Positions 1,446 through 57,275 of a stretch of 64,000 bases of DNA are shown piece after piece; positions within the stretch are counted from its first letter, which is position 1; every line of letters begins with the position of its first letter. Origin of the DNA: Agarophyton chilense. Taxonomy: Eukaryota; Rhodophyta; Florideophyceae; Gracilariales; Gracilariaceae. The notes below the pieces were generated by a model. It was not told where the DNA came from, ran no database searches, and saw only the letters and a list, made by a program, of their open reading frames with translations. The stretch is from positions 1 to 64,000 of the forward strand of contig JARGXX010000070.1 of the NCBI GenBank assembly GCA_030374765.1. The letters run 5' to 3'. The position numbers and the translations under genes are program-made.

Positions 1446-1479
1446 TAACTTTAATATCAGAATATGGGTTTCATTTGCT

Positions 1480-32088: not shown

Positions 32089-32117
32089 CGTCTGTGTTCT
32101 CGGAAAGCTAGTATTGG
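32089..32117. repeat. Left terminal inverted repeat of the 25-kb transposon
   Basis: 28 of 29 positions match the reverse complement of 57,247-57,275. Further inward, GCTAGTTT-type motifs recur (near 32,120, 32,219, 32,288, 32,321). Confidence 0.85.
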
Positions 32118-33216
32118 CAGCTAGTTTAGTATGCCGGAAGATATCCGGCGAAAAATCTGCGAAAAATGACGGATCGCGGATGCAGAGGTAATTTCTATAA
32201 ATTTTTTAGAGTGCCAGCTAGTTTTGGCTTTCGATTCTATATCAAAATCCTGCACATTATGAATGGGAATCGAATACACAAGCCCCTGCTAGTTTACCAC
32301 CTATGTTTGAATGCCAAACGCTAGATGTGAATGACAAAAGCCTGGCTAAAACACCCTCACACCAATCCATATCACAATGATATCTCCCAGAACCACCATC
32401 CACAATACGACCTGGTCTCGCCCACCTTCCCCTTGCACCCCTCATCCTCCTCTCCACTCCCCGCGATCCCCGCTAAAAACCCTCCTTCCTCCTTCTCCTC
32501 CTCCCCATCGATCCCCCTACTCCCAGCTCCAAAAACCGTTCCACCTACCTTTCGTTAGTGTCATGCATGGATACAGTTCGGCTCCGCATTTGCTCAAAAA
32601 TGCCGTCATACAATCATGAGAGGATGGGTGCCGTCGTTCGCAGGTTGGAATGGTGAGCCTCATTTCGAGAATTGCCGTCGGAGGTAGATCACAAATGACG
32701 AGGATACTTTACTCTGGACGACGGAAAGAAACATGTAGAGTAAGTAGACCAGGTTACAGAGCGGTTTATGCCTGAGGAGAAACTATATTAAAAGAAAGCT
32801 TGGCTTCGAAAGCAGACCAGCTCTACGCGGGAGGAGATCAAAGGGAAAATAATCTTTACGCAGGGCGTGTTGGGTGGTGAAGGGACTACCAACGCAACCT
32901 AGCTATGATCCCTACGCACAGCATGGGCGAAAGTTATAGCGCACCATCGGGTCGGATTGGTAAGAAAGAGTTCTAAAATACTCTCCTCTACTCGAAAGCT
33001 CGGTGGAAGGCTGATATGACTCGGCGGGGCCAATTGTAATAAGCGAGCAAGAATACGGATCAAAGTGATGTTTTTGGTGAAAGACAAGTTCCTCGATCAC
33101 TGACGTCTCGATAGGACGCTCCTTTCTCTGTTTCCACTTATCTCAGCAGAAGATGTGCGGGCGGTATGGGCCGTGGAAAAGTCACTGTTTAACCTTCCTA
33201 GATGAAGCAACCTTCT
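32118..33216. other. Left subterminal and non-coding region of the transposon
   Basis: AT-rich subterminal part with CTAG-type motifs to about 32,330, then a Pro/Ser-coding-like C-rich stretch (32,331-32,619) without recognisable homology, then nothing identifiable. Confidence 0.4.
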
Positions 33217-33760
33217 TCAAAAGTCCGCGAGCCAAGCTCCTCTTCTGGAGATTCTCTCTTGATTCGCTCTCATGATGCCACGGGCAGCAGTCGAAGCACT
33301 TGCGCGCACGTCTTCGAGCATTGTCGTATGATTCCTCGCCCTCAGTCTGGCTTCTTTGCGAGCTTCCTCTGCGATGCGCTGTTCTCGTTTAACCGCCTCG
33401 GCAATGCCCCGCAAATGGGCTTCTCTCTCCTTCGATATTTCCTTCTGAAGCCCGTCGGCTCGCTTCATAACGTCGTCAAGCTTGGCGGTCATTAACCGAC
33501 TCGTCTCAAGCTTCGCATTTAGTCGCGCAATCTCACTCTCCTGAGCTCTCTCGATAACCTTTGATGTACGCAGTTTTTCTTCCAAATATTTCCGGGACCG
33601 CTCCAGATTTTCCATATGTTCGGAAAAGTTCTTAAGTTCTTGATTCATGATAGATAGCTCCTCCTCTCTCAATCGCAAATTTTTCTCAGAGTGCTTGATC
33701 AGTCTTTCCATCTCCTCGAGAACTTTTGTTTCGTCCTGGGCGTTCTTTTCTTCTCTGAGG
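33217..33760 (-). pseudogene. Coiled-coil protein fragment
   Basis: Minus-strand frame of 165 codons from 33,711, almost entirely charged alpha-helix with heptad spacing (E-E-M-E-R-L, L-R-E-E-E-L, L-N-A-K-L-E). Coding resemblance extends upstream in the same frame to about 33,760 and then, in a shifted frame, to about 33,850, so the fragment is truncated or frameshifted at its 5' end, or has an intron there. Family not identifiable from a coiled coil. Confidence 0.45.
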
Positions 33761-34009
33761 CAAGTACATGAACCTCTTTCAGCAACAGTTCCATTTCGTA
33801 CCGAAGGCTACCGCATTCTGCGTTTGAGTAATTTTGTTTGAGCGTGACTGAGCTGCTTCCTTGTGATATCCAGTTGATTTACAAGGTTTCAAACGGACGT
33901 TGAGGATTGCCTCTCAGGGCGCATGAGATCCAACGTGATCTGTAAGGACAGCAGATTACTGTGAGTTTGGAGAACGAGCGTTTGGGTCGTGTCAGACCTT
34001 GAATCGCTC

Positions 34010-34591
34010 ACAGACATTCCGCTTCAGATTGGTGTCGCACATGCGTGGGTTGCTGGGTGGCTTTGTAATGGTATCGTTCACCGTCTCATCTGCCGGTTCA
34101 GAGTCACCATCATCATCATCAGTCGCGCTAAGCCACGAAGTACCTCCTGCTGGGATAGGGGCCGTGTTTATCCTTCATTGTGCGTGGGGCACCTCTGCTT
34201 GATGCATGCGATTCAGAGATATCTCTTCTACGTTTGTGTGGTTTGCTGCGTAGTCAAACTCATCTCCAGTATGGCCCTTTTGAATCCTTTCCTGGTAGTC
34301 CATCACGACAAAATCCGGTAGCAGGCTCATTCTACTTTCGGCATCGCTGCCTATGTAGCTAGCGTTTGTGTCTACGCTCTGTTGACTGAGCCGTGAGAGG
34401 ACCCCGAGTTTTGCAGAAGCCGAGAGGAATGGCTGGCCGTGGATCTCTGCCTCGCTGCTGCTTCCCAAGGAATGGCCTTCCGTACCTTCTATGGCATTAA
34501 TATCATGCCAGGCATCTATGACCCCATTCACGCATTTGACAATATCAGTCCACTTCATGCGAACAGTCCCAATCTGAAACGCAAGACTCAA
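34010..34591 (-). pseudogene. Hypothetical gene fragment
   Basis: Minus-strand frame of 138 codons (34,591-34,175), then TGA and a further open acidic stretch in the same frame to about 34,010. A TTGCGTTTCAG acceptor-like site precedes the W-T-D-I-V-K segment. Possibly exons of the same gene as the coiled coil at 33.2 kb. No family recognised. Confidence 0.3.
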
Positions 34592-34602
34592 TAGGAGACT
34601 AG

Positions 34603-34719
34603 GATGCTGAGCTTCGCCTGTACGACATTTACGTCAAGCTGAAAGAAGGTGAGAGTGTGGAGGACCAGTTCCAGCGAACTCTCAAAGAGCTTTACACGAA
34701 GCCCCCGAAACCGACATAG
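34603..34719 (+). pseudogene. Short C-terminal exon-like fragment
   Basis: 38 codons preceded by an AG and ended by TAG, with a coding-like helical sequence (D-A-E-L-R-L-Y-D-I-Y-V-K-L-K-E-G). Unidentified; could be a captured last exon. Confidence 0.25.
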
Positions 34720-35110
34720 TCGGAATGCTGCTTGTCATCTTCATCGAGTTGGTCGACATCACCACCCTCGATAAATTCATCGTCGTAGTCTTACTCGTCA
34801 GCGACAGCGCGCGTGCGGGCGTGCGGCTGTGCCGCCGGCGACGAAGGCTGGTCGTCTTCGTCCTCGCTGTCAGACGGAGCGGCGGAGCTGTGCTAGCACG
34901 TCCGCAGAGCCTCACGGATGTTACTGGTAGCCGCCCAGGAGATTCGGACGAATTCGCACACCGCTTTGCATTCGGTTCTGCGTTCCCATGGCGGTGGCGG
35001 CTAATGGAGAGTGTGCGCTTGCGCTTCGGCGGCTTTTTGGTTGGCACAGCGCGACGCCGCGGCCGTACGAAGCATGAAATCTCACCAAAAGAGAACCTGT
35101 ACATATCTTC
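34715..35110 (-). pseudogene. Basic-then-acidic nuclear-type C-terminal tail fragment
   Basis: On the minus strand a Lys/Arg-rich stretch (K-K-P-P-K-R-K-R) is followed, after a frame change and one stop, by a Ser/Asp/Glu-rich tail ending G-F-G-G-F-V. This resembles tails of nuclear proteins, but no family can be named. Confidence 0.25.
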
Positions 35111-35312
35111 CCTTGCCCTGTACGGAGATTCAAGTTGGAGAGGATATCGGGTTCTTGCGGCTCTTGCGAGTCAATGAAGCCGGATTGGTGCAAAGCGCCT
35201 TCAGATACAACTGATATTGTTCCGTTATCACTCGTTCTGCTTCGGATAAGCCTTTTCTATTTCCGTTCTCACAGGGTGTTGAATCCACTACCGAATTAGA
35301 AATGAAAGCGAC

Positions 35313-38300
35313 TCATTCGAATGGAAAGACAGTATGGGTTCCAAATGAACATTCCTGGTATACAGAGTACACATCTCGTAGGAATACGTTAACATCTTCT
35401 TGGATATTCTCCGGCGCTATCGCAACATATTCTACATTCTTCCGTTCGCTGTATGGTTCAAACCTACCAAAAGTCTCCACCCACTCCTTCTTGTAGCCCA
35501 CACACACTTTCGGAGGCTTGAGAGGAAATACGGCAGCAGATTTTCCCATGTAGTCGTTGATAGAACGCGGACCCAGTAAGACGGGTAAGTTGTCTTTAGG
35601 TTCCCGGATAAGCTCGGGGTGAGGAGATTCCCCTGATCTAGTTTGCGAAAGCTTGGGTCCGCAAGCAAGAGACCCAAAACACGTCTTACACCAATGAATT
35701 GTTTCCAACGCTGGCGGCAACCCAAGAAGCACCCGTCGCATTGTAGCCGAAGAAACCTCATTCGTTTCAAAATCCACAGAAACTCTTTCCTTCTGGGGGA
35801 AATCCATAGGATCATTCAAACTTCCCCGGAACAGAGACAGTTCATTCATTGAAAAGAGCTGCAATTCAAGTAAAGAAATAAGATAGTGAATTTCACCTTC
35901 TCTCTTGGAGAAAGGCCTTCCATTTGAAGATATTCCCCAGTGTGAATTACGATACGCTGATAAAACATAGCACGCGCTGGCACAATCAACGGCAATGGAG
36001 TATACCAACTTCAAGGCATCCATCTCAGAAGTACGATCCCCAGCTGTAGCTTCTTGGTCCCGCTTTTCACTGGCGCCCTCAGCGATGAGCTCATGCAAGA
36101 AACGCAACGTTGTGGGCGAGTATGCCTTCTGCTCGGGGGTTTGGGCCTTCCGTTCTTCGTCTTCATCTGATTCTAATAGATCCCGTTCCCATTCTTTGCG
36201 AAGCAGAGATGGGTCCTTCACTTCGCCCTGAAGCAGAAGCCTGGAGAACCTCTCAAGTTTCCTCCGAGGAATGTAAGATGATTGGCAGTTTTCCATATGA
36301 TCTTTCTGTCTGTTGCACGCTGACCAGTTCCCAAGAAACCTTTCACATCATCATCCTTATACTTTATAGAGACAAAACTTCCATTGCGAATCATATAGTT
36401 TCGAAAATCTTCTTATCTTGCTGACGCCCTGAGAAGTGGACAATCGCACACGACGGCGTTCTGTAAAATCCTCTTTAAAGAACGCAGTGAGCTTTTCACT
36501 TACATATGAACTCTGCGGCCTGCGGTCTGTGAGTGGGGATTTAAAGTTCTTCAATGCTGCACGAACGATATCTGTTGGTGATAGATTGATTTATTTTTCA
36601 TCCGACTCAGACTGAACATTGCCTTCACTCTGACGCTCAATAGACGATTCTTGGAGTGCTCTAAGTCCACGTCCATATTCGCGGTTTGTACGCCTTGTTT
36701 TCCATCAGGGTGCATGGAACCTGGATTCGTGGTCTGCTCTTCAGATCTTTGCCCGTTTTCAAAAATTGGTTGAATGGAATTCTTGTCGGTCCCAACATTA
36801 TTCTCGTCTTGCTGCAAGCGTTCATAGATTCCGTCAGGGAAGAACTCTGCAACTTCATCCAACGTACTAAAGTCAGTCATGCCCATTCCTATGTGCATTC
36901 CTTGCCCACCATGAAGGAAATCATGTGCATTGGATTCATCTCCATCCAAGGAGAAAGAATCAAGTCCACTGTAAGAGTTGATGGCAAACGTTGGCTCGCT
37001 TTTCATGTTCGCTAAAGGAATTGCCTCGTTCTTCGTCTCTGCTATATTATTCAAACCAGTATTTCCAGTCCCATTTTGTTGCGTTCCAGCAAGACCTTGT
37101 GAAACAGTTATTCTGCCTTTTACGGATTTATGCACGCCCGAATCAGCAAGGTCCGGAACCGGGAGTTCTAGGGAGCACCCCTCTTCGACGAGTGGATGGC
37201 GCGTGGCGAGAGCAGGGTCTTGTTTTTTGTCTTTCTGAAGGGATCGAATGGCAGCGTTAAGAGAATCCGCAGTTGAGGCGTCGTCTTTGAATAGCACTGA
37301 AGCTTGCTGAGAAGAGGGTTCCATGGGAGAAGGGGTGCGGTTGGTGTTGGTGTAGTATTCTACTATGTCGGGGAATCCGATAGGTTGGTTTTTCGCGAAG
37401 TCGCGGTGGGAACTCATAAGTGAGTGATATCATCAGCATTGTGATATGAAACGGCATCCCGCATAGGATGCCTAGAGGCAGAATGTCTTAGTGGAACACG
37501 TGGCGTCATGGGTCGAGTGGCTTGCAACGGTGCATGTAGTGGCCATCCACGTGGCTGTTTTTACTACCCTTTGTAGATGTAAGTACATTAGGGACCATAC
37601 CCGTACAGTAGTTTGGCTAAGTGGCTGACCACTGGGTATTATTTATATATTTATTTGGGCACTCACCTTGGCACACAGTATATAGTGTACCAGAGGTGAG
37701 CGCCGACTCCAAGTAAAGGAGACAACATGGGCATCATGACTATTCTGTTCCTTGCTTAGGATTCCTTAACCGGAGATCCGGACGAGTTATAATAGATAGT
37801 CAGCCCCCAACCACTTCACGAGCCGTCTCGTACCTACGTCCCATCAACGGTTTACAGTCGCACTTTTCACCCTCGTTGGCGAGTAATGTCCTTACACCCC
37901 ACTTCCAGCTCGCTGTTTTTGTAGCTCTACCACCCCTTTTCCTTCGCCGCAAGCGACCCATCGGCAGTCCGAACGCTGTCGCAGGTGTCTGCTCTCTCCG
38001 TTAGAGCGGATACTACAGTTGGCAGGAGGGCTACTCGGAGAGGGGGACCTTGGACGTTTTCTTGACGTCCACAACCTCGAGCTCTTGATACGTTTCTTGG
38101 GGTCCGGCACAGCTCTAGATACAGCTGCGGAAGTGGCTGAATCTGCAGGCAACAGCGTCTCGTCGGTGAGAATCACTGCTCGTGGATAAGGGACGACTAA
38201 TCCGTTTTCGAACTTGACAAACACAACCGACGAATCCAGCTCCACAGGCGAGGATGGGCTACGAGGATACATGCTGGCTTCGAGCCATCTGTCAAGGACG

Positions 38301-38559
38301 GACTCCGTTAGAGTATCGCCAGCCGTGGTACGTCGAGATAACCGAGCTGGGCTGCCAAGAGGTGCAGATGTGACGTGTAAGGAGTGATTAGGGTCTCGCA
38401 ACAAGTCTTGGTCTGTGATTCTGCAAGCGGTTGAGTTCTTTACGATGACTCGGATGATTACGCGAGGATTCGGTGGTGAGGAGAGAGATACCGAGAAGAA
38501 ATATGCAAGGGCTACGGACGGATGTACAACCTGATGGGCAACACGGAGCGCTCCCTTGA
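35313..38559 (-). pseudogene. MED13: MED13-like Mediator kinase-module gene, fragmented
   Basis: MED13 links the CDK8 kinase module to Mediator. Four collinear minus-strand pieces are seen. 38,559-37,892 begins at a TTGCAG acceptor and has an N-terminal-domain pattern (A-L-A-Y-F-F-S-V, then V-V-F-V-K-F-E-N-G-L-V-V-P-Y-P-R-A-V). 37,417-36,551 is an acidic, Ser-rich middle with D-F-S-T-L-D-E-V-A-E-F-F. 36,554-36,357 is a short piece. 36,296-35,313 ends in a stretch typical of the MED13 MID region: V-G-Y, E-P-Y, V-E-Y-V-A-I-A-P-E-N, V-F-L-R-D-V and C-S-F-G-T-H. The PIWI-like C-terminus is missing. It sits inside the 25-kb transposon and is probably captured host sequence. The best evidence is the last piece. 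Confidence 0.6.
37418..37891. other. AT-rich stretch between two MED13-like pieces
   Basis: About 470 bp without coding signal; contains a 7-bp-arm hairpin (GGCATCC...GGATGCC, near 37,454-37,473) and a TATA-like run (37,642-37,657). Could be an intron or a small inserted element. Confidence 0.3.
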
Positions 38560-39540
38560 CTGCAAGAGAGAGAGAATGGTGTGTTTGCCACTTTCTCGAA
38601 GCTGCTCAAGAGGTTGAGGCAATTGGACATCCGGAAGCGAGATGTTGGGATCTGGGGGCGTGAGGTGGAACTGGCGCAAAAGGCAGCGAGCCAAGTGGCG
38701 AGTGTTGTTTCGGCGATGACGAGAGAGGTTGGCGTCCGCATTGGAAGAAGGGAGGAAAAACTCGCGTTCTGAGAGAAGGTGCGGGGCGAAACGGCTGAAG
38801 AGTCGACACAGCGAAATTCACTGGCGCGTGGCTTGCTCGAACGAAAGACCAGTGTCCATCAAGTTGATGGCGAAAAGCCAGGCAGATATGGCGTTTGCGA
38901 TTTGGGTGCGCCATATGTGGCACACTTGCAGCGCGCACGTCGCTTCTGGGCCATGTACGTCCAAAATGGGGCGCGCGCGCAGTTGTTTCAAAAAGGAACC
39001 GATTTCCCGGTATCACTGCATACGCGCACGGCTCTTTGTGTAGGTCCAAAACACCCGGCAATCGCGATGCTTAAACCACCACCACAACCACCACAAACCC
39101 CATCCCTCCCCTTCCCTAAACCCTCCTCCTCCCTCTCTCTCAACCCTAGTCATCCTTAAGCTACAGCTCGCCGCGCACCAAACGTTCACCGCGCTGCTCG
39201 CGCCCCTGCATGCAGCCGCACCCCGCCATTTCCATCCCCGCAGCCCCGCATTCCCGTCCTCCCTTCTCCCTCAGCGCTTTCACCGAGGGTGCATCCAACG
39301 CTGCACGTTACGCACCCTCCTTCTGAAAGCCAACCCTCCAACTCGCCATCTTGTTGGGATCCGCGCACCGACTGCTTCCAAACTTTATTTTACTTTGCCT
39401 CAACCGTCATCACCGTGATCCAAATTCTCTCACGCGCCCTCCTCAGGGCAACACCCTTTCCCCGATCTCTTGCTGAATCCACTGGAAACGTCAACTCAGC
39501 TTTCACAAACCACGTTTGTACCACCTTCACCAAAACATCA
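38560..39540. other. Region upstream of the MED13-like gene
   Basis: Overlapping open frames on both strands without recognisable motifs; one minus frame near 38,694-38,580 could be a preceding MED13 exon. Holds the GC-rich dispersed repeat at 38,967-39,037. Confidence 0.3.
38967..39037. repeat. GC-rich dispersed repeat, second copy
   Basis: Inverted relative to 24,828-24,898, about 88% identical by eye, beginning in a (GC)n run. Confidence 0.7.
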
Positions 39541-39544
39541 TCTT

Positions 39545-40293
39545 CCGCCGCAACCCCGTTCGCAACTAACCGCCACACCAACTTCCCCTTCACCACCGCC
39601 GCAACCCTGTTCTCAAGTAACCCCCGCACTAACTCTCCCTCCACCACCTCCGCAATCCTGTCCCAACCTAACCCCCGCACTAATTCTCCCTCCACCACCG
39701 CTGCAAACCTGTCCGCATCTAACCCCCGCACCGACTTCCCCTCCACCACCACCACAACCCTGTCCCCGACTAACCCCCGCACCAACTGCCCTTTCACCAC
39801 CGCTGCAACTCTGTCCCCACCTAACCCCCGCACTAATTCTCTCTCCACCACCGCCGCAAACCTGTCCGCAACTAACCCCCGCACCGACTTCCCCTCCACC
39901 ACCACCACAACCCTGTCCCCAACTAACCCCCGCACCAACTGCCCTTTCACCACCGCTGCAACTCTTTCCACACCTAACCCCCGCACTAATTCTCCCTCCA
40001 CCACCGCCGCAACCCCGTTCGCAACTCACCCCCATACCGACTCTCCCTCCACAACTGCCGCAACCCCGTCCTCAACTAACCCCCGCACTAATTCTCCCTC
40101 CACCACCGCCGCAACCCTGTCCCCAGCTCACCCCCGCACCAACTTCCCCTCCACCACCACCGCAACCCCGTTCGCAACTCACCCCCGCACCAACTCTCCC
40201 CACACCACCGCCGCAACCCCGTCCGCAACTAATCCCCGCACCAACTTCCCCTCCACCACTGCCGCAACCCTGTCTCCAACTAACCCCGCACCC
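39545..40293 (+). repeat. 51-bp minisatellite, about 14-15 units
   Basis: The string CCCCCGCAC recurs at 39,621, 39,672, 39,723 and 39,774, exactly 51 bp apart, and onward to about 40,290. Because 51 is a multiple of three, several frames stay open through the array. One gives 17-residue N-P-R-T-N-S-P-S-T-T-A-A-T-L-type units, another Pro-rich units, and the minus strand Gly/Val/Cys-rich units. The plus-strand frame from 39,289 to 40,341 (350 codons) looks like a secreted Ser/Thr/Pro-rich repeat protein but has no clear signal peptide, so whether any frame is translated is unknown. Confidence 0.85.
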
Positions 40294-40450
40294 GGCTTGT
40301 CGAAGAATCACCAATCAGAAAGTTCTCACAGACAGTGCTAGACGAAACGAGACCTCGACCCACAGCAATTCCGGATAGAAAAGGAAGGGAAAAAGGAAAG
40401 CAGAAAAGAAACGGACGAAGAATGCAACCATTCCGTTCAATTGACAAGAG

Positions 40451-40755
40451 TCACGGAAGACGTGTCTCTTCATACTCAAATGCCGAACCTTCATTCTTTT
40501 CAGAAGATTTCCCGAATGTCACCATGTTCTTATCCTTAAAAAAGGCAGAAATGCAATATACGCGCCGAAGAGGTATGTATGGCAAACGCAATGCAAGAAA
40601 CAAACAAGAATGAGATGCAGGTGTGTTCTTTCTCGTGAACCAGCCGAGATTGACATTAATGCCTTCAAAAAATGGCATGTGTTCGATTGTACTGACGGCA
40701 TCCTCTTCCGACCTTCGATCTTCAAATGATCCGAACTGTACTATGGCTGGCTCAA
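40451..40755 (-). pseudogene. 3' part of the gene interrupted by copia
   Basis: Minus-strand open stretch flanking the CTCAA target duplication, continuing the sequence present before insertion at 45,257. Ends in a charged segment at 40,451. No family recognised. Confidence 0.35.
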
Positions 40756-40853
40756 TGACAGACCGTACACGTTGCCTCCAGACCAAGGAATAGATAGTCC
40801 ACCAGACGCCGACGTCGACCCAAGTAAAGTGAGACATCTTGTGCACTCCGTCA
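40756..40853 (+). repeat. 5' LTR of copia element
   Basis: 98 bp, TGACAG...CCGTCA; very short for an LTR. Confidence 0.95.
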
Positions 40854-41023
40854 GGTTATGGGCCCTCACTCACAAATCGATCCCACATCCGCACGATCCC
40901 GCCGACTCCGCCGCCGCCAAGAGCAAGCACCATTCGTCGACATAACAGCGGACCTCTTAAGACTCGTCTACCAAGAACAAAAGTATACCTTACAAGCAGA
41001 TAACACCACACACCATCACACCA

Positions 41024-41586
41024 TGGCGAACGACTCCAAATCCGAAATCCCACAACTCGAAAAAGCAAACTACGGACCTAGGCTCGTAGCGCTACGGGCC
41101 TACGCACGACGCAACGAGTGCCTAGATCATCTCACAAGCAACTTACCCAAACCACAGGCAGCTGCTGAACTCAAATCATTCAACAACAAGGAAGACCTGC
41201 TCGTCGGAAAAATACTATCCACCACTCCCACAGATATCCTAAACCTACTGAAAACACCAAAAAGCGATCCATCACCACACGATCTCCTGCAGTACATAAC
41301 GAACCATCTAAACAAGGCAAACCAAGACAACCACAAATACTTCAAACAAGAAGCGGAAGACACCATCTTCGAACCTGGGATGGACATTACGGAGTATCTC
41401 GAGAAGCATCTAGATATCAGAGCTCGTATGGTAGCCGCCAGATACCCGGGAATATCAGACCAAAGCCTCACAGTCTCTTTCATGATCGAGGGACTAAAAC
41501 AAAATCCAGACACCGCACAGATTGGCATCACCTTCTTCTCAACAAAACCCAGCACCCCACAAGAATTTGCCAGCCAATTCAAATGA
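41024..41586 (+). CDS. gag: Copia gag
   Basis: 187 codons from ATG 41,024 (an in-frame ATG at 40,858 would add 55 residues and lies only 5 bp after the LTR). A helical capsid-like domain, with W absent and Y-L-E-K-H-L-D-I-R-A-R-M and S-F-M-I-E-G-L motifs typical of UBN2-type copia Gag. No zinc knuckle seen. The stop TGA overlaps the next ATG as ATGA at 41,583-41,586, so pol would start by termination-reinitiation or -1 frameshift. Confidence 0.75.
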
Positions 41587-44500
41587 TACACAAATATGTA
41601 CACACAGCATCCCGCACTTTCGGACTCTCTGCCCACGACCTTACCGGGGACCACACACGTACTCCTAGCCAACGCCAACGGACTCATACCACCCCGCGGT
41701 ACCGAGAGCGCCACGCGAACCCGTGCCAGCACCACATCGCCCTCGGCGTGCGCTCCCCACGCCATACAGACACTAAATGCCGAGACCCCAACCACCCGCG
41801 TCACAGAAACGAACGCGCACAAGCCCGCGGCCGACGCCCACAACCGCGCGCTCGGGCCCTATATGTCGTAAACAACGACAACGAAAACCCCCCGCAAGAA
41901 TTGCAATATGCCTCAGAGGACTCTGACAGCCACGGCAAGCTAAGTTTGGATTCCGGAGCACACCCAACACATGTCCAAAGCCCTTCCGCATTACTACATC
42001 CCACACGCCAAACACTGCAAACGAAAACAGCAACTAACCAGTCCGTGCCCTGTACGCACGCCGGCCAGACCGCGATCCTCACCAGCAAGGGTAAAAACCT
42101 CACACTACCCGCCGTGTGCACACCCCGAGTCCCCGACACCCTTCTGTCTGTCCACGACATCGCAGTGCGGTCAGGCGCAGTAACCTTCGACCCCATTAGA
42201 GCCTCCATCATTCAACTAAAGAAAGACAGGCTCCCAAAAGTTATTGGCATCGCCCCATGGAACCCTAAACACAACGCCTATATCCTCTCGCGATCACGAA
42301 AAACAGCAGTAGCCCGCACAAGCCGCACAATTCCAATCTCGAAACGCTCTGCTCCCCCCAAAAAGCAAACGCATCTGCACACGAATCCAACCGTCAACGA
42401 CCAACCCCACCCACGAACAAAACTTTCCACCAAGAACATCCACAGCCACCACGGCCCATCCTCCTACCGATCAGCGAGTCGTGAACCACTAATCCACAAA
42501 CACTCCCCACCACCAGACCCGACCCACCGACCATCGCCATCCCAACTTATATACCACGACTGGCACCTTCGGTTAAACCACGCGCCGATGCGCGCCATAC
42601 AAGTCATGGCAAACAGGAAAATACTCCCTAACATGCCTGGAAACCTCCGCAACCACCCGCCGCCCCTAACCTGCACATCCTGCGCATACGGCAAACAAAC
42701 ACCACGCCCACATCACCTCACCTCACACCACCATGCCCTTGGCTACTACTTCAGCTCGGACACATGCGGCCCGATCAACCCTCCCTCTCGCCACGAAACC
42801 GACATTTCCTCAGCTTCATAGACAGCCACAGTAGATACCTCATCCTCTACTTCCTCAAATCACGCTCTGAAGTCTTTCCCTGCATCCGGGAACTCCTGAC
42901 CATACTCCACACCAGCGGCCCTCGTACTCCTGCAATTTACCGCACCGACAATGCCAAGGAATTCCTATCAAAAAAGGCATCTCAACTGTACCGCACATAC
43001 GGAATAGAACATCGCACACCGACCCCACATCAACCCCAAGAAAACTCCATCGCGGAACGGATCAACCAGACACTCATGCGCTCTGCCCGCGCGAACATAC
43101 ATCACTCCCAACTCCCCGACAACTACTGGGAGGAAGCCGTACGAGACGCAGCCTTCAAGTATAATATCATGTACCACCGCTCCATAGATGACTCCCCTGC
43201 AACCCTTTGGAACAACCGCCAGCCCAACCCCAGCCGCATCTTTTCCTTCGGCCAACTAGGCCATACACCCATACACAAAGCACAAAAACACAAACTCGAG
43301 CCCCGCGCCGACCCCGCTCGATATATGTATAGCATCTCCGACACAATGATAGTAGTACAGAACCTCCGCACAAATCAAACACAAAAACTGAGAGCCGTCG
43401 ACTTCATACCATACCACCCAGAATCCGATCCCACCGTCTCAAACCCCACAGTACGCAGGGCCCTCACAAAGAACCCCAACCCGCCAACCATAAGCCCTTT
43501 TACACGCGACCCAACTTCCAGAAAAGATGCTGGACGATTCCCCGACGCAGAGGCATGGTCTGCAGCACACAACACCGAACTCCGAAAATTGGACGACAAC
43601 GGCACGATCAAATGGATACATAACTCCGATCTACCCACTACAGCCAAACCCATACCACTCAAAATGACATACCGGTACAAATGGTCTGAGCACGGCCAAG
43701 TCCTAGAACACAAGGCCAGATGCACAGTGCGCGGCGACCGCATGCTCCCGGGCATTCACTACGACCCTTCCAATGTCGCCACCCACATGGCCGAGAAGAA
43801 ATCTATTCGAGCCATCTTTGCGATAGCTGCACAAAACAAATGGCATATCGAACACTTCGACATATCGTCGGCATACCTCCATGAAAACTACGACACCTCC
43901 TTCGCGGTATACGTCCGACAGCCCCCGCTATTCGATGGTACCTTCGCTCATCCAGGTAAATATGGACGCCTCATCGGTAACCTCTATGGCACACCACCAG
44001 CTGCTTTCATCTACGCCAATGCCCTTCGAAACTACCTCAAGATCCACGGCTACGACACCACCTCAGCTGACCAAAACGTCATCTTCCACGAAAACCACCG
44101 GGGCAAACTCATATGCGCACTTATTATGGACGACTTCCTAGTCACGTCGACCGACACACAGCTCATCACCAACCTTTACACCAAACTGTCCAAGAAGTAC
44201 AAAATTAAGCGCCTGGGCCACCCCACCAAATACCTCAACTGGATCGTCCATCGAACGGACAACGGAAACATACAAATATCACAACCACACGTTATACAGG
44301 ACATCCTTCAGACCAACAACATGAGCGCATGCAACACGAAACCAACCCCACTGCCAAACCAAAAAATGCTGCTCACAACACAAAACCGGCCACTCTCCTC
44401 AAAGGATACAACCGAATACCGCCACACCTTAGGATCACTGCGCTATCTCGCCGATTCAACGCGGCCAGACATTACCTTTGCAACCAACTGCCTCGCCTGT

Positions 44501-45157
44501 GCCATGCAAAATCCCACTAGGAGCGACCAGCAGAAATTAAAAAGGCTCCTGCGGTATCTAGCTGGTAACCGCAACCTCGGCATCCTATACACCAGCAACC
44601 AACCCACAAAAGACCCACTCTGCTCTTTCTCTGACGCAGACTACTCCTACGCAACCAACCGTCGCTCCTACAGCGGCTCTGTACACCTACTGTACGGATC
44701 CCCCATCTGCTGGTCTTCCAAGAAACAATCTATCACCGCACTGAGCACGTGCGAAGCTGAGTATATCGCCGCTTCTTCTACGGTCCAAGTCACCAACTGG
44801 CTTCGTCGCCTACTCCAGGACATCAGAATCGACCCAATAACACCATCTCCGCTTTTCATAGACAACTCCAGCACCCTCCAAATCATCGACAACACGGCGC
44901 CAACAAAACGACGCAAACTTATCGATATCCGACATCATCACATCGCCAACAACAGACAGCGAGGAGTTGTCACCCCAACCCACGCCGAAAGCTCCCGAAA
45001 CTCGGCCGACCCATTCACAAAGCCGCTAAACCGCGTGGCACACCACAACCATCTGAAGCGACTGCACATGACCACGTCCGCCCCTCCATCAGCGCAGCAG
45101 CACCGGGGACTGACAGACCGTACAAGACCTCATGCTGCTGCGCCCAGCCAACACTGA
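41583..45157 (+). pseudogene. pol: Copia pol (protease, integrase, RT, RNase H) with one frameshift
   Basis: Protease D-S-G-A near 41,955; GAG-pre-integrase zinc motif (H...N-H...C-x2-C) near 42,560-42,690; integrase D in S-S-D-T-C-G-P-I near 42,760, then T-D-N-A-K-E-F and E-N-S-I-A-E-R; RT with A-L-I-M-D-D-F-L-V (M-D-D instead of Y-V-D-D) near 44,130; RNase H with S-D-A-D-Y, C-E-A-E-Y-I-A and D-N-S-S. One base appears lost in an A-run near 42,794-42,798 (ACGAAACC), shifting the frame inside the integrase; otherwise open to 45,157. The stop codon TGA is formed by the first three bases of the 3' LTR. Confidence 0.9.
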
Positions 45158-45252
45158 CAGACCGTACACGTTGCCTCCAGACCAACGAATAGATAGTCCA
45201 CCAGACGCCGACGTCGACCCAAGTAAAGTGAGACATCTTGTGCACTCCGTCA
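45155..45252 (+). repeat. 3' LTR of copia element
   Basis: 98 bp, one difference from the 5' LTR (G versus C in GACCAASGAA). A 16-bp copy of its start (TGACAGACCGTACA) also occurs about 45 bp upstream at 45,110. Confidence 0.95.
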
Positions 45253-46265: not shown

Positions 46266-46387
46266 GTCTGGAAAATCTCAGAACTGCTAGGGAATTTCAA
46301 CAGAGTTCAACAATGTGCGGGTGGAGAACTCGCCACTATGGTCGTGGAATATGAAAAGCTACCGGTCGGGTGTCTACAACTTGAGAC

Positions 46388-47622: not shown

Positions 47623-48371
47623 AAACCCCACACCGAGTGAGGCGTCCAGTGTGCAAGATAATTCACCAGAGCGCTTCTTTACCGGATTGAAGCGTATTTA
47701 CGGCGTAGCCGGTGCCACTCTGCCGCCAGATGTGAACACTTCTTCCGTGATGCAAAGTTTCCCAGTAACTATCCAACGTTGGATCGAAGAAACTACCCAC
47801 CACTGAACGATTCGAATGATGAAGAATGGAAGACTGCATTTACTTTGCAAACAAACTCGAGAATAAGCCCGATTCACAATTTCACAAGCCGAACCTGAAG
47901 TCGCAATGGTCGACGCTCGAGTGACCGCGGTATGCGAAACAGAAATCCTGAGGGCTCTGAATTCGCTTTTTCCAATTGTTCGAAGGTAAATCCATCGCCT
48001 CCACTGGTTTTCGGCCTCGATAGTCCGGAAACTCATCCCACCCTGTGCGCTCTTGAGAGCGAATAGAGTATAGTAGATGCGGTCAAAGAGTACGGGAGGC
48101 AAAGCATTAGCCGTAAAAACGGGTTGCAAATGCAATGGGCTTCCACAGAGAGGTTGTTCCGAAAGAGAGCCGATCTTCATAGGTCATTGAGCGCTGTGAA
48201 GTGGCTTGGTACAGAGGAGAAAACAACTCCTATTACCTTCCCGGATGAAATTCCACAACGGCGCGAACGCGGTCGAATTGCTTCAACTCGACGAAATGAC
48301 GGAATTGAAACACCGAATGTGAGTCAGAACATATCAATCGTTGAGATGCACATGTTGCTGTCATTGATAAA
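47623..48371. other. Unassigned region after DCP1
   Basis: Overlapping open frames on both strands; a plus-strand frame to 47,806 (E-R-F-F-T-G-L-K-R-I-Y-G) could be more of the DCP1 tail. Nothing firm. Confidence 0.3.
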
Positions 48372-48640
48372 GTGAGTAGGCAGGCACTTTATGACTCAAA
48401 CCTATGTGGAACAGATATAGACGCCGTCGCAGCTACTATGGGACCCACATTAGAGATTTGTCTCTGCGTTGGGTATCGAGCAGCTCGCCAAATAGCGCAG
48501 CAGCAAAAAAAAGATTTTTTCGCAGTCAATCATCTTGAGGCAGATGTTCTTGTTGCACGGCCCGAGTCGCACACGCCTTCTCTATTTCTTACGCTGCTTG
48601 TACCAGGTGTGCAGAGTATAATTGCAGACCTTAGTCCTCG
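48372..48640 (+). pseudogene. TsaD/OSGEPL1-family fragment
   Basis: TsaD/Qri7/OSGEPL1 proteins make the N6-threonylcarbamoyl-adenosine of tRNA. About 80 codons match the family: D-I-D-A-V-A-A-T-M-G-P, L-E-I-C-L-C-V-G, F-A-V-N-H-L-E-A, then L-L-V-P-G where L-V-S-G-G is usual. The second metal-ligand His of the H-x3-H motif is replaced (H-L-E-A-D). N- and C-terminal parts are absent. The frame runs on without a stop into the transposon partner gene, giving a chimeric open frame of 545 codons (48,372-50,009). Confidence 0.7.
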
Positions 48641-48890
48641 ACGTGAACACATCCAGATCACGAACCCGAAAAAAACGATTCGTTTGCACGTGAAGAGGAC
48701 TTCAAGCAGCGTTCATTCCTTTTGTCTGCACGCGTTTCTGTTCGCCATCGTCGGAGAGAGGTTAATCAAGCCCGCGATCCCTATCGTACGGCTACGTAAG
48801 CCAACGAGTGTTCATTTACGTTGTCAGCGGGCCCTGCTTTTCGTGACGGTCTACGAGAGATTCCGAGGCCCTTATCTAAAGGTTCACGTG

Positions 48891-51709
48891 ATGCGGCGCA
48901 AAAACGCAGAGAACAGGAGGATCATTCGGAGTTCTCGGAAACCCAAGCCGCCTGTTACGGCTTCTAGCAGAAAGGACGCGATGCCTGCAACGCGCAGCGG
49001 AGCAACGCGGGCGAATAAGGTAGGAATCCCACCATGGAAGCCGAAACCTGACCAGCAGGTGACTCGGTTGGTGACCACGCCGAGCGGCGAAAAGAAAGTC
49101 GTGGTGAAGGCATTTGTAAGGGGTGCGGTTGATGCGACGGGGAGGCTTACGGGAGATTTTGGGAGAGAGTTGCATGGTCACAAACTGGTCGGGAAGGCGA
49201 AGGAGAAACCCGTGGTGGTATGGAAGGTGTTGATTCAGGATGAGAAAAAAATGGATTGCCCTTATCCGTTCAAAACTACAGATACCGTACCGAACCGTCT
49301 GGGTGATATGGAGCGCAACTCTTTCTATTGCTGGGAAGTGAACATGATGAAAATTTATGGTGGCGAAGCGGCGACTCTTCCACAGACACCGTCCTCCACT
49401 CCGTCTGCACCTTCAGCCAAGAAGTCCTCTGCTAAGACGGTGAAGGAAAAGGAGCAAGAAAGAAGTTCGTCGTCTGCGAGGGAAGGTACGGTGAGCGAGG
49501 TGGTGAGGAGGATCGAAAGAAATTTGGGAGGTCCGATGACTCGTAATCGGGCCGTTCACGACATTCCAACCTTAGCTAGTGACGAAGAGAATGGGACCGA
49601 GAGAGAAGCGAAGAGGCGACGGTGTAGTGGTTCCCATGGTGTTAACTTCCATGAAAAAGGAGAAGGCAATGAAGCAGAAGGGCATGGTTTAGAAATAAAT
49701 GAGATACGCGGAGGCACTGCTGGTTCAAAGAAACACGTTTTTGACGAATCAAAGAACGAAATTGTTCCAGGTGGGAGTGCGGGACGGAGTAAAGGCCAAG
49801 TTCGTTTTCCAAGGTCCATACCAAGCGGGAGCAGGGAGAAACGTGTAGGGACGGAGCCTAAGGGAGAAGGAGTCGTGGTTGGAAGGAAGGGGGTGCAATT
49901 TCGCAGAGTCCCAGAATGCAGATCAGTACAACGGTCTTCTTATCGACAAAACCCGGGTCATGCAGTGAGGAGTGTCGAACAAGGGCACGCTGAGGGGTCA
50001 AACGACTGAGTGGGCGCGGGGAGACCTCCGAGAAACCAGAGTGTGAGGGAGTTGAGGAAGGGAGGGGAGGTTGAAAAAGGAGATGGACTTTGGGTTGTGG
50101 ATGAGGAGGATGAGGATGCAATTCCCCCGTGGAAGGAAGGCGAACAAAAGGGGATGAAGTATGCAGAAACGAAGATTATGGGGCGGAATCAGCTGTTGGC
50201 CAAGTTTGGAGACATGAAGGGGGAGCTTCAAAGGGCAAGGGATGACAACGCAAGTTTGCAACTAAGCTTAAAAATCGCCCACAGGGATATGAAGAGGCTG
50301 GAGGGCGAAGATAAGAAAAAGGAAATGCTGCTGACGTCATCGCAAGAGACTCTTCGTGGTCGAACAGGACAAGTGGGTGGCGAAGAAGGGAAGGGGGGTC
50401 GGAAACGGTATGGAATTGAAGTGGATATGCGATTTATTGGAGTAGCCTGGAGAGTTTACGAGAACATATTGCGTTATGCAAAGGAGGAGACGAGTGAGTT
50501 GTGCTTCGGAAGGAGGGAACCGGAGCGAAACTGGTCGAACAGGGCAGAAGAAGTGAGGGCGGGGAGGAATCAGATTATTTTGATTATAAATGAAAAGAAG
50601 ATGGTGCCTTTAGATCCTATGGAGCTGGCAACAGGAAGAAAGTCGTGGGGACCGAAGGCCTACACTCCGTCTTTTCAGGGGGAAGTGATGAGATGTTGTT
50701 GCATGTGGTGCGGATGGAGTTGGAGAATCTGATATAGAGAAAATTTGCGGGGATGGGGATGAAGAAGCAGTGTGAAGAGGAGTTGAGGAGGGATACGTGT
50801 TTGAGGAGGCGGATGAAACAGGCTCTCAGTGATGCTGTGGGGGTGCGGAAAAGGAATGCGAGGGATAGGTTGTTTTTGGGTCTGGGATATACTCTACTTG
50901 CTAGAAAACCTCTTAACGAGGATGATGAAGAACTGAATGTGTTGTATGAAGAGCAGAAGATGGAGGCTCGGGGGAAGTTGTTCCCGAAAGCCGCGAATGG
51001 GGAGCCCGTCATATCTGCATGGAGGTTGGACAAGATGGAGAACCTATGTTTTTCAGGGTACGATGTGAACTCGACAAAGTATGGGGATGAACCTGATGAC
51101 TTGTGCTTCAAGAACGGATTGAGTGTGGAGGTGTTGAGAGAGTTTATGGGGTGCGATGTGGAGCAACCGTGGGAGGAAGGAGAGACACAGTATGTGGATG
51201 GAAGTGTGATGCATCTGGACCGCTTGGATGCGGGGATTGCATCTGTGGTAGAGGCGTTGGATGAGGTGATGGGTAGAGGAGGGAAGCGACAGATGCTGTT
51301 TTCGAAACTGTATGCGAAGCATCTGCCTGTGGCTGTGGAGGATATCTTACGGACAGCGAGAAGGAAGGTAGAAGAGAAGTACGGAGAGGAGCTTGTGAAC
51401 CATGGTGTGAAGGATGAGGACCCGACTGAAGTGCTGGGAAATGAGGAACGTGAAGGGACCGTTGCGTTTTGGATGCCTTCGAACCAACTGGTCTATCTGG
51501 GTGTTCGCTACGAGGTGTTTTTGGAGGAGATGACTACTTTTCTCGGGTATGTATTTGATTGCTGCGTCGGACGTTGTATGCCTGAAGAACGCGAGTTTAT
51601 GGAGTTGTTAGCGGAGGAGAAAGAAATGTGGGAGGCGAAAGAGGAAGGGGAGGAGAGAGATGGGGAGGGGGTGGAATGCGGAGGTGAACTAGATATTTTT
51701 GATGATTGA
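48891..51709 (+). pseudogene. Transposon partner gene (TnpA-like position), copy 2
   Basis: Starts at ATG 48,891 or 48,981. Segment 1 (to 50,009) is basic, with a W-x-P-K-P-D-Q-Q...K-K-V-V-V-K-A-F-V region and a Ser/Thr-rich linker. After TGA at 50,007-50,009 the same frame continues as a coiled-coil region and an R-R-Y/R-Y-G-I-E-V-D-M-R-F-I-G-V-A-W helical domain (to about 50,680). Following a frame change and a shared TAG, a helical C-terminal domain begins at 50,753 and runs intact to an acidic tail at 51,709. No family recognised. Convergent with the transposase, 35 bp between stops. Copy 1 is at 57-1,445. Confidence 0.6.
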
Positions 51710-51743
51710 TAACTTTACTACCAGAAGATGGGTTTCATTTGCT

Positions 51744-54700
51744 TCAAGTTGATTCTTTTGTAGAGAAACAAGCTCTCGCTCGTGGGTCGCTGTAGAATCT
51801 GTTGATAGAGAAGCGATGTCCATGCCAGGGGAGGGGCGGGAAGAAAGGGCGTGCTGGGTAGTTCTGGCGGACAAGATGGACGGAACTGAGGATGGCGGAG
51901 AAGGGAACGAGACCGAACCAGGGTGCGACATAGGAGCCAGAGCGTTGGAATCTGTTTCCAGCGGGGGGGATAGTGTGGTCCTGTTCATCGTCTGTTGCCT
52001 AACGGAGGGTGATGCACTTCAGGGTTTCATCCATGTGATCGAGGGGAGTTGTGAGTTCGAAGAAGCGGACGAAAGCGTATTCGCGTTCGTCAGGATTTTC
52101 ATCTTTTTTGGTAAAGCAAAGAAGGGCGAGAAGCTTGCAGACCCAAACAGTGGGGAAGTTGCAGTTAGGTGGTGGAGTACCGGAGACGAGAATGTGAGAG
52201 AACTTTAGAAGTTTGGAAGGACCGAAGGTGGAGGTGGCAAATGTGCGCTGTGTGACGGGGACTGGTGGTTCTCTGAAGCGGATGCAGTTGAATGTTTGGT
52301 CGACGTCTTGTAAGGCGGGGGTGAACCCGCTGGGGATGTAGGCGGAGTTGACCAGGGAGAAGGTAAGAAAGGAGAGAGACAGGGAAGAGGAAGAGAGTTC
52401 GATAGCTTCGAGGCACAGATCGGGAAAGGGTGAAATAGCGTCGCGTGAGATTTGGGGGATGAAAGAAAGGGTGAAAGAGGTGAACATGATTGAGAGAGAG
52501 GCATTGGAGCAGTTTTGGATTGCACGGAGGTACTTCTTTGCAGTGATGATGTCGCGGAAGAGCACGGTGGTACCGTCGCGGACCATGGAAAACAGTCGAG
52601 CATGACGGAAGGAGGAGTTTGAGGAGGAGGAAATGTGGTGGGGAATGGCGGTTGAGTTTCGGAAGCATTCTGCGAGCTGGATTGCGTCGACTGTTTCTCT
52701 GTGAGCGGTTGAAGATCTTCGGGATGTTCGTCGATAGTGGGTTTTGAAGAGGAGGTGTGCATGTTCGTAGATGCCGGCGTCAGTGAATTGAAGACCTCCG
52801 TATAGATCAATATCAGCAATGATGTGGTCCAGAAGGTGGAACTTCAGTGTTCCGAAGTGAGAAGCTTGGAAAGAGGCGAGGACGGAGACGCAGAGAGACT
52901 TGAAGTAATTGATGAGTTCCTGGAGGTTGTAAAGTCGTTGGTCTCTTCATTCTGAGGTGGTGTTGTTGTAGAGTGCGGCGGTGAAGAGGTCTGCGTATGC
53001 TGTAAAGATGGAGGTGATGGGAGCTGTGTCAACTTCACCGCAACAACGGTCGAAGAAGGCACCTATGAAGGGTGAGACCATGTCGACAGCGCGGTAGTCT
53101 TTTGCCTCGAGCATGCATTTGATGCCGTCCAAGGTGTAGAACCCGTTTAGGTATGTACCCTTTTCGGGTGTGGAAAATTCGATGTGCAGTCCGTGTGCGG
53201 AGAAGTTGGCTTCGATATTTGCGAGGATGTTGTTTGCGTGGGTCAGGAGGGAGCTTCGGATGGATTTAAAGGATTCCAAGGAGCCGTTGGAGGACGCGAG
53301 AGTAGTGAAGAGGCTGTTGGACTTCAAGCGTTCGATGGTTGCCAGTTTGACGAGCTTGGAGATACCCAGATGGAAATTGTCAAGGGGTTCGAAGGAGAAG
53401 ATAGAGTAAGGGCTGAAGAGTGGGGATATATTAAGAAGAGGGTATGTTTCGAAGAAGGAGTGGTACGCGGAGAGGGAGTTTGTGCGGAGGAGAGATGCTG
53501 CTTGGTCTCTGAGAGTTCTTGCTACGCGCGGTCGGCGAATTTGTTCGGCGTCGTTGGCATCCTTGAGAAGGGCGTTGTGTACGGATCTGGTGTGACGGGT
53601 GTGGGAAATATTTCAAGGGGATACGGAAGTGAGGTAGATGTTGAGGTCGGAGCGAGGTGATAGGTATCTGTGGCACGGCTTGGATGGGTTTGTGCCGTGT
53701 AGGATGGCGAGGATGTCTTTTGCTTCTGGGATGTCTGCAGCATAGTTTGCGATGACTGGGTGGCACTGTCTAATGACCTGGTCTTCATCACGGAAAGGGA
53801 AACCCTTGAGGGCGACTGCAGCGAGGGGTTCGAGGATGGTTTGTAGAGATTCTTGGATGAGTTTCATTCGGGTTGTGCGGCTGAGGGCTGAAGAAAGAAG
53901 GTGGCCTTCGATGCATTCCTCGTCGGATGGAGAGGAAAACGCTTCGAACGAGGTGGGAAAGTAGCCAAGGAGGGTGTAGTTGCGGGAGATGCAATGGCGG
54001 CGGAAGGAGTCTGAAAAGTTGAGGAGGGTGATGTGAAGGGGGTAGGAGGTGATAGAGGAGCTTTTCAGGGAGGTGGAAGACTTGTCCGAGTAGAGATGGA
54101 TGAAGCCGATGAAAGATTTTATGCCAGAGATGTCCGCGTTGTGCCAAATAACATCTGGGTCTTGAGAGCAGAGGTTGAGGTGTTTGAGGTCCGGATAAAC
54201 ACAACTGCCGAGTTTTGAAGCCATGGGATGAGTGAGTGCAGGAGAACCATCTGAAGAACACTGTCTGATAGGGTGAAAGAAGGTGTTAGCGCGAGTGGCG
54301 TAGCGAAGTGGCTAGAGAAGGGCATCGACGGGGTTTTTGAGGTAGAGAGTTGCGGTGATGTTTGAGAGATTGTGACGAACGGTTGTGAATTTGAAGCCGA
54401 TGGAGCCGACAGTTTCCTCGAATAGTTTGGAATGAAGTTGAAGGCAGTGGGAGACGGAGGTAACCTGTTGAATAAGTGTTTGGGAGTAGTTGGGGTCCTT
54501 GAGGAGGGTAATGAGTTCGTCGGCTTTGCGTTTGCCGAGCTTGGTGGCGATGAAGGAGATGTAGGAGACGATGGGATGGAGCTTCACGACTTCGCGAGGG
54601 CTGGGAGAAGGGCAGCGAAGAGAAGCCTTGAGAAGGTGGGCGGCGTCTGCGGAGCGTATGGCTAGAGCGAGCTGGCTCGAATGGTAGTCGTCCTCTTTTA

Positions 54701-54926
54701 CCAGCGGAAAGGCGTTGGAAAGGCGTTGGAGATGCCAACGGAGCGGATTTCTGCGGTCTGGACGCGTGGGCGCTTCGTGCGTGGTGGGAATTGAGTTCCA
54801 TCTTTTGGGGGTGGTGGCGAAAAAGGCGTTGCAGGTGGTGCGGTAGCGACACCGGCGCTGGTGTTGGACAAGGGAGGTATGACCTTTTGTCTGGAAGGTG
54901 CACCTTGGGAAGCGAGAAGGCTGCAT
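51744..54926 (-). pseudogene. Plavaka/KDZ-like DDE transposase, copy 2
   Basis: Same protein as at 1,480-4,662. It shares TAG at 54,312-54,314 and TGA at 53,613-53,615 and 52,947-52,949, and has an additional TAG at 51,999-52,001 where copy 1 reads Leu. All segments stay in one frame, so the breaks are single nonsense changes or lie in introns whose length keeps the frame. Motif order and assignment are as for copy 1. Confidence 0.65.
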
Positions 54927-55005
54927 GGTGTGGGGGGTGCCTGCGCGCGATCTCGGAAAGTAAATCGGGGAGGTGAAAAAGACGTAGAACGAGGAGAGAG
55001 GGGGA

Positions 55006-55017
55006 TACTATATACAG
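55006..55017 (-). promoter_or_regulatory. TATA-like box upstream of transposase, copy 2
   Basis: Identical to the copy 1 motif at 4,741-4,752; about 80 bp before the start codon. Confidence 0.4.
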
Positions 55018-55640
55018 GCTGGAAGTGAGAAAGATGCACGACGAGGACGGTGGGGAGAGTATAAACTTATCTGGCGTACTCACCAAAGTCAAGTGATGCG
55101 CCAGAGACACCCACAAGTCGTGTGGCAAGACAGAAACGGCGCATATGTGTATTGGAAAGTGGGTTGGAATGAAAATATTCAAAGTTGTATTTTTTGAGTG
55201 GCGGCGTGTACTTGTCTTGATTGTGAGTATTGGCCGGATGTGCTGTTGTGGGATCTTGAGATCCTGTGATATGATGTCTTCTGGACCTTGTGGACCTTCG
55301 GCGTTTTCTAGGTGCGTGAGAAGCGGTATTGCGCGTGCGTTTCACAAGTGCTGACTCTGTTTCTATTTTTGCGCGAGCGGGCGGAGCACGACCGGGGCGT
55401 TTAGTGATGGGGTGCGGTGTGGGTAGTGACGGGTTGACCAGATTGCGATTGAGATGTACGTCGTCTATGTTGATCTGGGGCCTTCAAACTGTTTGTGGTC
55501 ATGCGCACGCGGGCGAAGAGCGAGGGGAGCGATGGGTGATGCAGCGTGGGGTGGAGGGTAGGCGGGTGAGTGGGTTGCGATTTGGAGGTACGCGGCGCGC
55601 TACGTTGACCTGGTGTGTTTGTTCTCCTTCTTGTTGCTAA
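55018..55640. other. Region between transposase and intron array
   Basis: G-rich on the plus strand; frames open on both strands (55,329-55,640 plus; 55,643-55,401 minus) but unlike any family. Could be the first exon of the intron-array transcript. Confidence 0.3.
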
Positions 55641-56666
55641 CATGGGAAACCTATTTCAGAGGCCCTCATGATGATGAACAGGTGAGTTTGCTACGTTTTC
55701 TGCCATGAAATCTGGACGGAGACCTGACATATTTTTGACTGTGGCTGCGAAGCGACATAAAATTGGAATGGGCGGGCAGGATTCGTTGAGTTAAAGGTGA
55801 GGCGGAGTGCTACTGGTGTCTCTTAGAGATTTAGGAAGGATATCTGACATGTTCTTGTTTGCTGCTGCGAAGTGACGGAGAGGAAAGAGTGTGTGGGGAG
55901 GGGAACCTCCTTGAAGGAAGTGAATCAAGCAAGCGGCTTAGGAGGTGAGTTCGTCGCTGAGGAAATTTCTTTCTGTTTTTGACGGAGATCTGACTTGTAT
56001 TTTTTTATTGTTACGAAAGTGCCGGCGACGTTGTATGAATAGGGAATGATGGAAGTGCGGGTAAGTGCGAGTGCTACTTGTGTCTGGTATTGTTTTTAGA
56101 ATGAGTTCTGACATGTTATTTTTTGCTTCTGCGAAGCGACAGAAAGGAGCGATTGGGTGAGGAGGGAGATATTCTAGAAGGACTGGGCCAAGCAAGTTTC
56201 TTAGGAGGTGAGTGGGTCATTGAAGTAATGTGGTTTCGATTATTGGTGGAAGTCTGACTTATATTTCTTTCTTGTTACGACAATGGTTGATCGGGAAATG
56301 GTGGCATCAAAGGTAAGTGCGAGCTTCCATCGTATCTTATATGCGTTAGGGAAGGAGATCTGACATGCCGTTGGGGAAGGAGATCTGACTTGCCGTTGTT
56401 TGCTGCTGCAAGAGAACAGGGGGGCAAGGTTGGACAAGAGATAGGATAAGTGGTCGCTATAGAGGTGAGTGGCGTGCTGGTGTGGTTTGGGTTTGTGTTG
56501 TGACGGAGATCTGACTTTTGTCTATTTATTGATGCGAATGAAGAAAGTGGAGGCAAGACGAGGAGCACATTTTTGACAGAGGTAAGTTTGTTTATATGGA
56601 ATTTGCTTGCATGAAGAGAGGAATTGGGCTCTAACTTGTGTGATTTTGTGATGTCTATCTACTTAG
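55641..56666 (+). repeat. Array of short introns and micro-exons, copy 2
   Basis: Same layout as 5,378-6,402, with donors from 55,682 and the last acceptor TACTTAG at 56,660-56,666. All splice-like sites except the altered acceptor after the fifth branch point are kept in both copies. Confidence 0.6.
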
Positions 56667-57275
56667 ATAGGAATTGGGGATTGATGAAGGGTGAACTGGT
56701 GTACTGCTTGGACGGTTCTCGGAGAATGGAGGGTTCTTCGCGTCGCGCTTCGCGCGACGCGAATTGAAGCGCAACGATCGGGGGACGTGATGCAAAGCGG
56801 GTCACCGCATGCGAATCGGGAAGATCTCATTTCACGTGCAACGGGGACCCGTTTCGGGTTTCAGTTGCAGGATCGCCGTATTATGCACTGGCTATTAGGG
56901 TCATTAGAGGAAATTAAATTGAATGTGCAGGTCATTTGAACGGCTCATACTCGCTATTATACCTTCGAGAAATGAATGATCATGCGCTAGATAGCGTTCA
57001 GTATTCCTTTCATTGTCGACAGAATTCATGGTCTAGGATTAATGAGTATCGAAAGATATCTCCCAAGTTCTCTTCCATTCTTCCTAGTGTGCCGGTGTAA
57101 GTACAGATGATTGCTAGTTTTCCACATTCTCCCCAAAATTCACTTGGGCTAGTATTTTTGCGCTAGATATTCTGGCATCAAAAATCTGCGAATCTATGAA
57201 TGCTAACCATAGACATTCTAGCACACCCAAACTAGAAATCTAGAACCCAATACTAGCTTTCCGAAAACACAGACG
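56667..57275. repeat. Right subterminal region and terminal inverted repeat, copy 2
   Basis: Non-coding, with recurrent CTAG-type motifs; inverted repeat at 57,247-57,275. Confidence 0.65.

Follow-up and report, generated by a model that had tools for sequence, protein, structure and literature searches.

The window described here (64,000 nucleotides, positions 1 to 64,000 of contig JARGXX010000070.1, assembly GCA_030374765.1) contains a transposon that forms a single unit of 25,187 bp (32089-57275). It is very probably a large cut-and-paste element of the Plavaka lineage, in the CACTA/Mirage/Chapaev/Transib (CMCT) clade, with two genes of its own and fragments of host genes aboard, present as a broken copy in a red alga. 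What is new is a large Plavaka-lineage transposon, in what appears to be a red alga, that combines termini not reported before, an orphan convergent gene and Pack-type cargo; large red-algal EnSpm elements were already known. An earlier reading of the window made from sequence alone (the original prediction) had proposed a 25-kb Plavaka/KDZ-like transposon carrying host genes in a probable alga.

The borders of the element are well defined. Its arms are inverted repeats of 39 bp (32089-32127 and 57237-57275, 87% identity), the outermost 29 bp of which match at 28 of 29 positions, and GA abuts the element at both borders. The host site is the integrase of a gypsy element. Of 12 fetched gypsy loci, L111-L120 were scored (L121 and L122 are in the other orientation). 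The site is empty at L117-L120, where the integrase is uninterrupted and contains a single GA, and filled at L111, L113, L114 and L116. L112 and L115, which are the C41 and C60 copies, count as filled from the end motif, which directly adjoins the gypsy match. The 29-bp inverted ends, the GA flanks and the integrase frame restored by removal of the element, all claimed in the original prediction, were borne out. The predicted size agrees with the span, although 4.5 kb of it belongs to a nested copia retrotransposon. CTCAA stands on both sides of the copia insertion, and the sister copy on C41, 20,461 bp long, has CTCAA once and no copia. The window sits in a duplicated block, since 1-13729 repeats 50268-64000 at 97% identity and the gypsy-site insertion recurs at least six times (twice on C70, and on C41, C69, C60 and C36).

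The same ends occur throughout the genome. With up to three mismatches, the 29-bp end motif has 177 matches in 79.8 Mb (91 forward, 86 reverse) and its reversed control has none; the matches are not a product of chance. From 100 listed matches of the 177, 24 inward-facing end pairs, 3.5 to 25.6 kb apart, were picked by eye (candidates on C7, C97 and C120 are outside the set). An exact 2-bp duplication (CA, AA, TA, TT, AT, TC, TG or GA) was found at 16 of these pairs. Two pairs of copies have common flanks, and the count is therefore 14 of 22 distinct sites; chance alone, at 1/16 for each site, would give this with a probability of about 3e-12. Pairs lacking an exact duplication are those on C3, C4, C10, C16, C80, C98 and C113 (the last with an altered terminal base) and one on C68. 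The search for further copies that had been suggested with the original prediction thus returned other end pairs, 2-bp duplications and empty gypsy sites.

Some copies show other arrangements. Five elements of 10,990-10,997 bp on C68, C71, C79, C80 and C105 share these ends, contain part of the coiled-coil stretch and are probably a non-autonomous subfamily; the C80 element has retrotransposon-like and enoyl-ACP-reductase-like pieces and no Plavaka match among the matches listed. On C70 (87492-100420) and C86 (1402723-1415657), a Plavaka frame lies about 12.2 kb inside the left end and on its strand, the reverse of the usual orientation. These frames are open for 1,148 and 1,043 amino acids, respectively, and are perhaps one nested insertion copied by duplication. 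On C126 two left ends in the same orientation (35319 and 46319) lie 11,000 bp apart, about one 11-kb element length. They may be head-to-tail neighbours, and neighbours of this kind have been suggested to give rise to gene capture in Pack-TYPE elements.

The transposase assigns the element to its family. A profile search, again suggested at the outset, gave 69.9 bits for PF18759 (Plavaka) in the window transposase against a cut-off of 26.3, and relatives at L016 and L108 scored 81.2 and 78.1 bits. The pseudogene named in the original prediction is real and lies inside the element on the minus strand; the position then cited for it, 1480-4662, belongs to the second, partial copy upstream. Long open transposase frames are present elsewhere in the genome. 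Between the second D and the last E stand the C(2)C and H(3-4)H motifs that mark the CMCT clade in the relevant part of PMC12730594. They are invariant in nine aligned sequences, and D292, D406 and E728 would be the catalytic residues. The predicted model of an intact relative's transposase resembles RAG1 and Transib, a fold that can be called RAG1-like at the level of the model. RAG1 was not among the four weak matches of a transposase sequence profile to PDB chains. The one named fungal relative that was found is 29% identical over 12% of the query.

Termini and duplications have been used to separate the related families. In the passages of PMC12730594 that deal with them, fungal PlavakaA has TGT..ACA termini and a 2-bp duplication, PlavakaB has CATCA..TGATG and 2-3 bp, fungal EnSpm has CAC..GTG and 3 bp, and Zisupton has an 8-bp duplication; Plavaka is placed there next to EnSpm. 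The window element shares with fungal PlavakaA and PlavakaB the PF18759 transposase, the terminal inverted repeats and the 2-bp duplications, seen at the end pairs and the empty site alike. It differs in its CGTCTGT..ACAGACG ends, red-algal host, large size, convergent second gene and host-gene fragments, and would be a further Plavaka lineage because the published termini describe two fungal ones. TET/JBP cargo, a further point of comparison with fungal Plavaka, was not found in a search that had no positive control. Of the earlier label, Plavaka stands and KDZ (Kyakuja, Dileera, Zisupton) found no support: PF18758 has no match in the genome, in a search where no control genome gave a match either, and the duplications are 2 bp, not 8 bp. 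They also differ from the 5-bp duplications of RAG1 and Transib.

The uncharacterised convergent gene of the original prediction, open reading frame 2 (ORF2), proved real. With its C-terminal 318 residues as query, at least 126 matches were detected in the genome. It is convergent and downstream at 2,362-3,307 bp for 76 of the 123 Plavaka matches listed, and for none of the 123 does it lie within 6 kb in any other arrangement; the remaining 47 have no nearby ORF2 match among those listed. A subfamily about 45% identical includes several copies whose frames are open over 900-960 amino acids. No homologue was detected among 7,991 candidates scored from a protein database, and ORF2 has no Pfam domain of its own. 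Its predicted model has a pLDDT of 38 and was left unused.

Several host gene sequences had been predicted inside the element. MED13 and TsaD pieces with parents elsewhere in the genome are indeed present, as fragments rather than genes. The parent MED13 gene on C95 has an open frame of 1,723 amino acids; the fragment lies in antisense and corresponds to 2.95 kb of that gene, with about 145 bp missing. The 668-bp insert within the fragment (37350-38018), with ends TGTAGTAT..ATACTACA, is possibly a small non-autonomous element. In eight measured copies, four of which represent one insertion, the distance of the TsaD fragment from the right end is 8.64-8.74 kb. In nine measured copies, which include one insertion at least twice, the coiled-coil fragment is 1,057-1,074 bp away from the left end. 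Two sister elements carry other pieces, an enoyl-ACP-reductase-like fragment on C80 (119.6 bits) and a PaO-like fragment on C21 (39.1 bits). In a tally that drew on the MED13, TsaD and coiled-coil match lists and on part of the Plavaka and ORF2 lists, 14 of the 24 end pairs have a listed cargo piece between their ends, and an exact duplication accompanies 12 of these. Capture through an RNA intermediate was considered and set aside: a stretch of about 210 bp in the coiled-coil region of other copies is missing from the window copy, but this stretch lacks GT-AG borders and so does not attest to the loss of an intron.

A mechanism can be proposed from these features. The RAG1-like DDE transposase would bind the 29-bp ends and the subterminal repeats of the right end, whose TCTGACWT core occurs seven times at 765-1432 bp from that end and nowhere else in the window element. 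It would then excise the element and reinsert it with a 2-bp staggered cut, with the ORF2 protein acting as its putative transposition partner. Uptake of host-gene pieces probably took place at the DNA level, through the aberrant excision or repair suggested for Pack-CACTA, and the pieces would then have spread as passengers on the chassis.

Other explanations of the family and of its second gene have some merit. The element might be a large EnSpm/CACTA transposon of the Chondrus crispus type, with Plavaka merely Pfam's label, which is a tenable but less probable reading. Chondrus crispus En/Spm families of 16-20 kb with 4-5 ORFs (Kojima, Bao and Jurka 2013, cited in PMC6431247) match in red-algal host, CMC-type DNA transposon and similar length, in a one-sentence description that mentions neither Plavaka nor the nature of the ORFs. 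Repbase is described as holding 1,181 Chondrus families by 2015, and the adjoining position of Plavaka and EnSpm would also suit this reading. In the other direction, PF18759 is the sole Pfam family that two transposases matched with E at or below 0.01, and the CGTCTGT ends and 2-bp duplication depart from the strict EnSpm/CACTA definition of CAC..GTG termini with 3 bp, as used for fungal EnSpm. An origin of ORF2 as a regulator, or as a host gene captured long ago, is somewhat less likely again. The lack of a detected homologue or domain and the Plavaka matches without a nearby ORF2 would be consistent with such an origin, whereas the convergent pairing, the near-constant spacing, the two subfamilies and the long open frames count against it.

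The captured pieces could also be functional cargo, acting for instance in antisense-RNA regulation of their parent genes. The near-fixed positions of the MED13 and TsaD fragments in several copies, and a TsaD frame open in three of the four fragments compared, the window piece included, would fit. Set against the parents, however, the MED13 and TsaD fragments have pN/pS values of 0.56-1.29, with stops or frameshifts in 7/7 MED13 and 1/4 TsaD comparisons, data that bear on a protein-coding role only. Function is considered improbable, and the two fragments are taken as passengers. Least likely by far is that the repeated units arose by segmental duplication and not by transposition. The recurrence of the window element at one gypsy site and the flanks common to C40 and C126 are of that kind, but the 22 distinct flank sites, 14 with exact duplications, and the empty sites restrict duplication to the extra copies of the gypsy-site insertion.

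Related systems have been described elsewhere, and Plavaka elements are best known from fungi. Plavaka-type transposons are in print for the green alga Auxenochlorella (EnSpm-Plavaka; the passage in PMC12636532 gives neither size nor cargo). In Amoebidium, giant repeats of up to 50 kb have a Plavaka transposase adjoining long gene clusters; many of the cluster genes are tyrosine recombinases, and fragments of host housekeeping genes are not mentioned in the relevant passages of PMC11244446. With these reports and the Chondrus elements, the claim of a probably undescribed element outside the usual hosts holds only in part. The literature searched, to which subscription journals and Repbase Reports did not belong, contained no Plavaka anatomy from a red alga and no host-gene capture by Plavaka. 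Plant Pack-CACTA and Pack-TYPE elements, as characterized in parts of PMC8903248 and PMC13317346, likewise have terminal inverted repeats and carry and spread fragments of host coding genes whose parents lie elsewhere, as is found here for MED13 and TsaD. Pack-TYPE elements are by definition non-autonomous and known from plants, whereas the red-algal chassis contains a transposase gene and ORF2 as well. RAG-like transposons, in the account excerpted from PMC7204232, share a RAG1-type transposase and a convergent second gene; the 2-bp duplication distinguishes the present element, and ORF2 has no detected relation to RAG2.

The earlier call of a probable alga is supported by the gene content of the genome. 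The light-harvesting family has matches at eight loci, several with the entire domain in one open frame, and the best matches of the one locus tested are Lhcr-type chains, presumably from red algae and cryptophytes. Phycobilisome-linker matches occur on C39 and six other contigs. An 892-amino-acid frame with three linker domains recurs on C39 185,684 bp apart, as might be expected of a plastid genome read twice. From these genes, a red alga fits best as the host.

Coordinates of the element, its parts and associated repeats in the window
Feature	Position	Strand	Remarks
Target-site duplication GA, left	32087..32088	.	flanks and empty site
Left terminal inverted repeat	32089..32117	+	29 bp, imperfect extension to 32127
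Coiled-coil gene fragment	33150..34700	-	present in many copies
MED13 fragment	35126..38573	-	parent on C95, 91-93% identical; frameshifts, stops; 668-bp insert about 37350-38018
51-bp tandem repeat array	39443..40405	.	repeat analysis
Nested copia retrotransposon	40756..45252	+	long terminal repeats ~100 bp, 98% identical; 5-bp duplication CTCAA
TsaD fragment	48343..48601	+	259 bp; parent on C92, 90% identical; frame open
ORF2, convergent with transposase	48891..51709	+	start approximate; broken here, three frames
Plavaka transposase gene, broken	51744..54926	-	Pfam domain at 53409-54116, one stop inside
Subterminal repeats, right end	55711..56538	+	core TCTGACWT
Right terminal inverted repeat	57247..57275	-	end-motif match
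Target-site duplication GA, right	57276..57277	.	flanks and empty site
Second, partial copy (right part), same gypsy site	1..7011	.	duplicated block, matching on to 13729

Outside the transposon, MLH1 is split and permuted within 16034-25734. The portion from the C-terminus (Mlh1_C, 195.8 bits; 16408-17460) is located upstream of the DNA_mis_repair part (24701-25177, 41.7 bits), and a 372-bp direct repeat (94%) is found near both parts, a layout as from a rearranged tandem duplication. A plus-strand ORF at 20926-22095 encodes SKDAEKEELRR-like repeats in frame, together with a nuclease domain of Uma2 type (PF05685, 51.6 bits). Rfam gave no match.

The element provides a Plavaka family with its full anatomy: ends, 2-bp duplications, empty sites, two genes and relatives with long open frames. 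The predicted structure supports the proposal that groups Plavaka with RAG1 and Transib, and the family shows capture and spread of host-gene pieces. Tentatively, and with the odds somewhat against it, the red-algal Plavaka may be an independent two-component transposon of RAG1 type, in which a lineage-specific convergent ORF2 takes the place of RAG2 and whose chassis has taken up and multiplied host exons repeatedly. Across the genome an orphan ORF2 is paired with a RAG1-like transposase, which makes the acquisition of a partner subunit a testable question.

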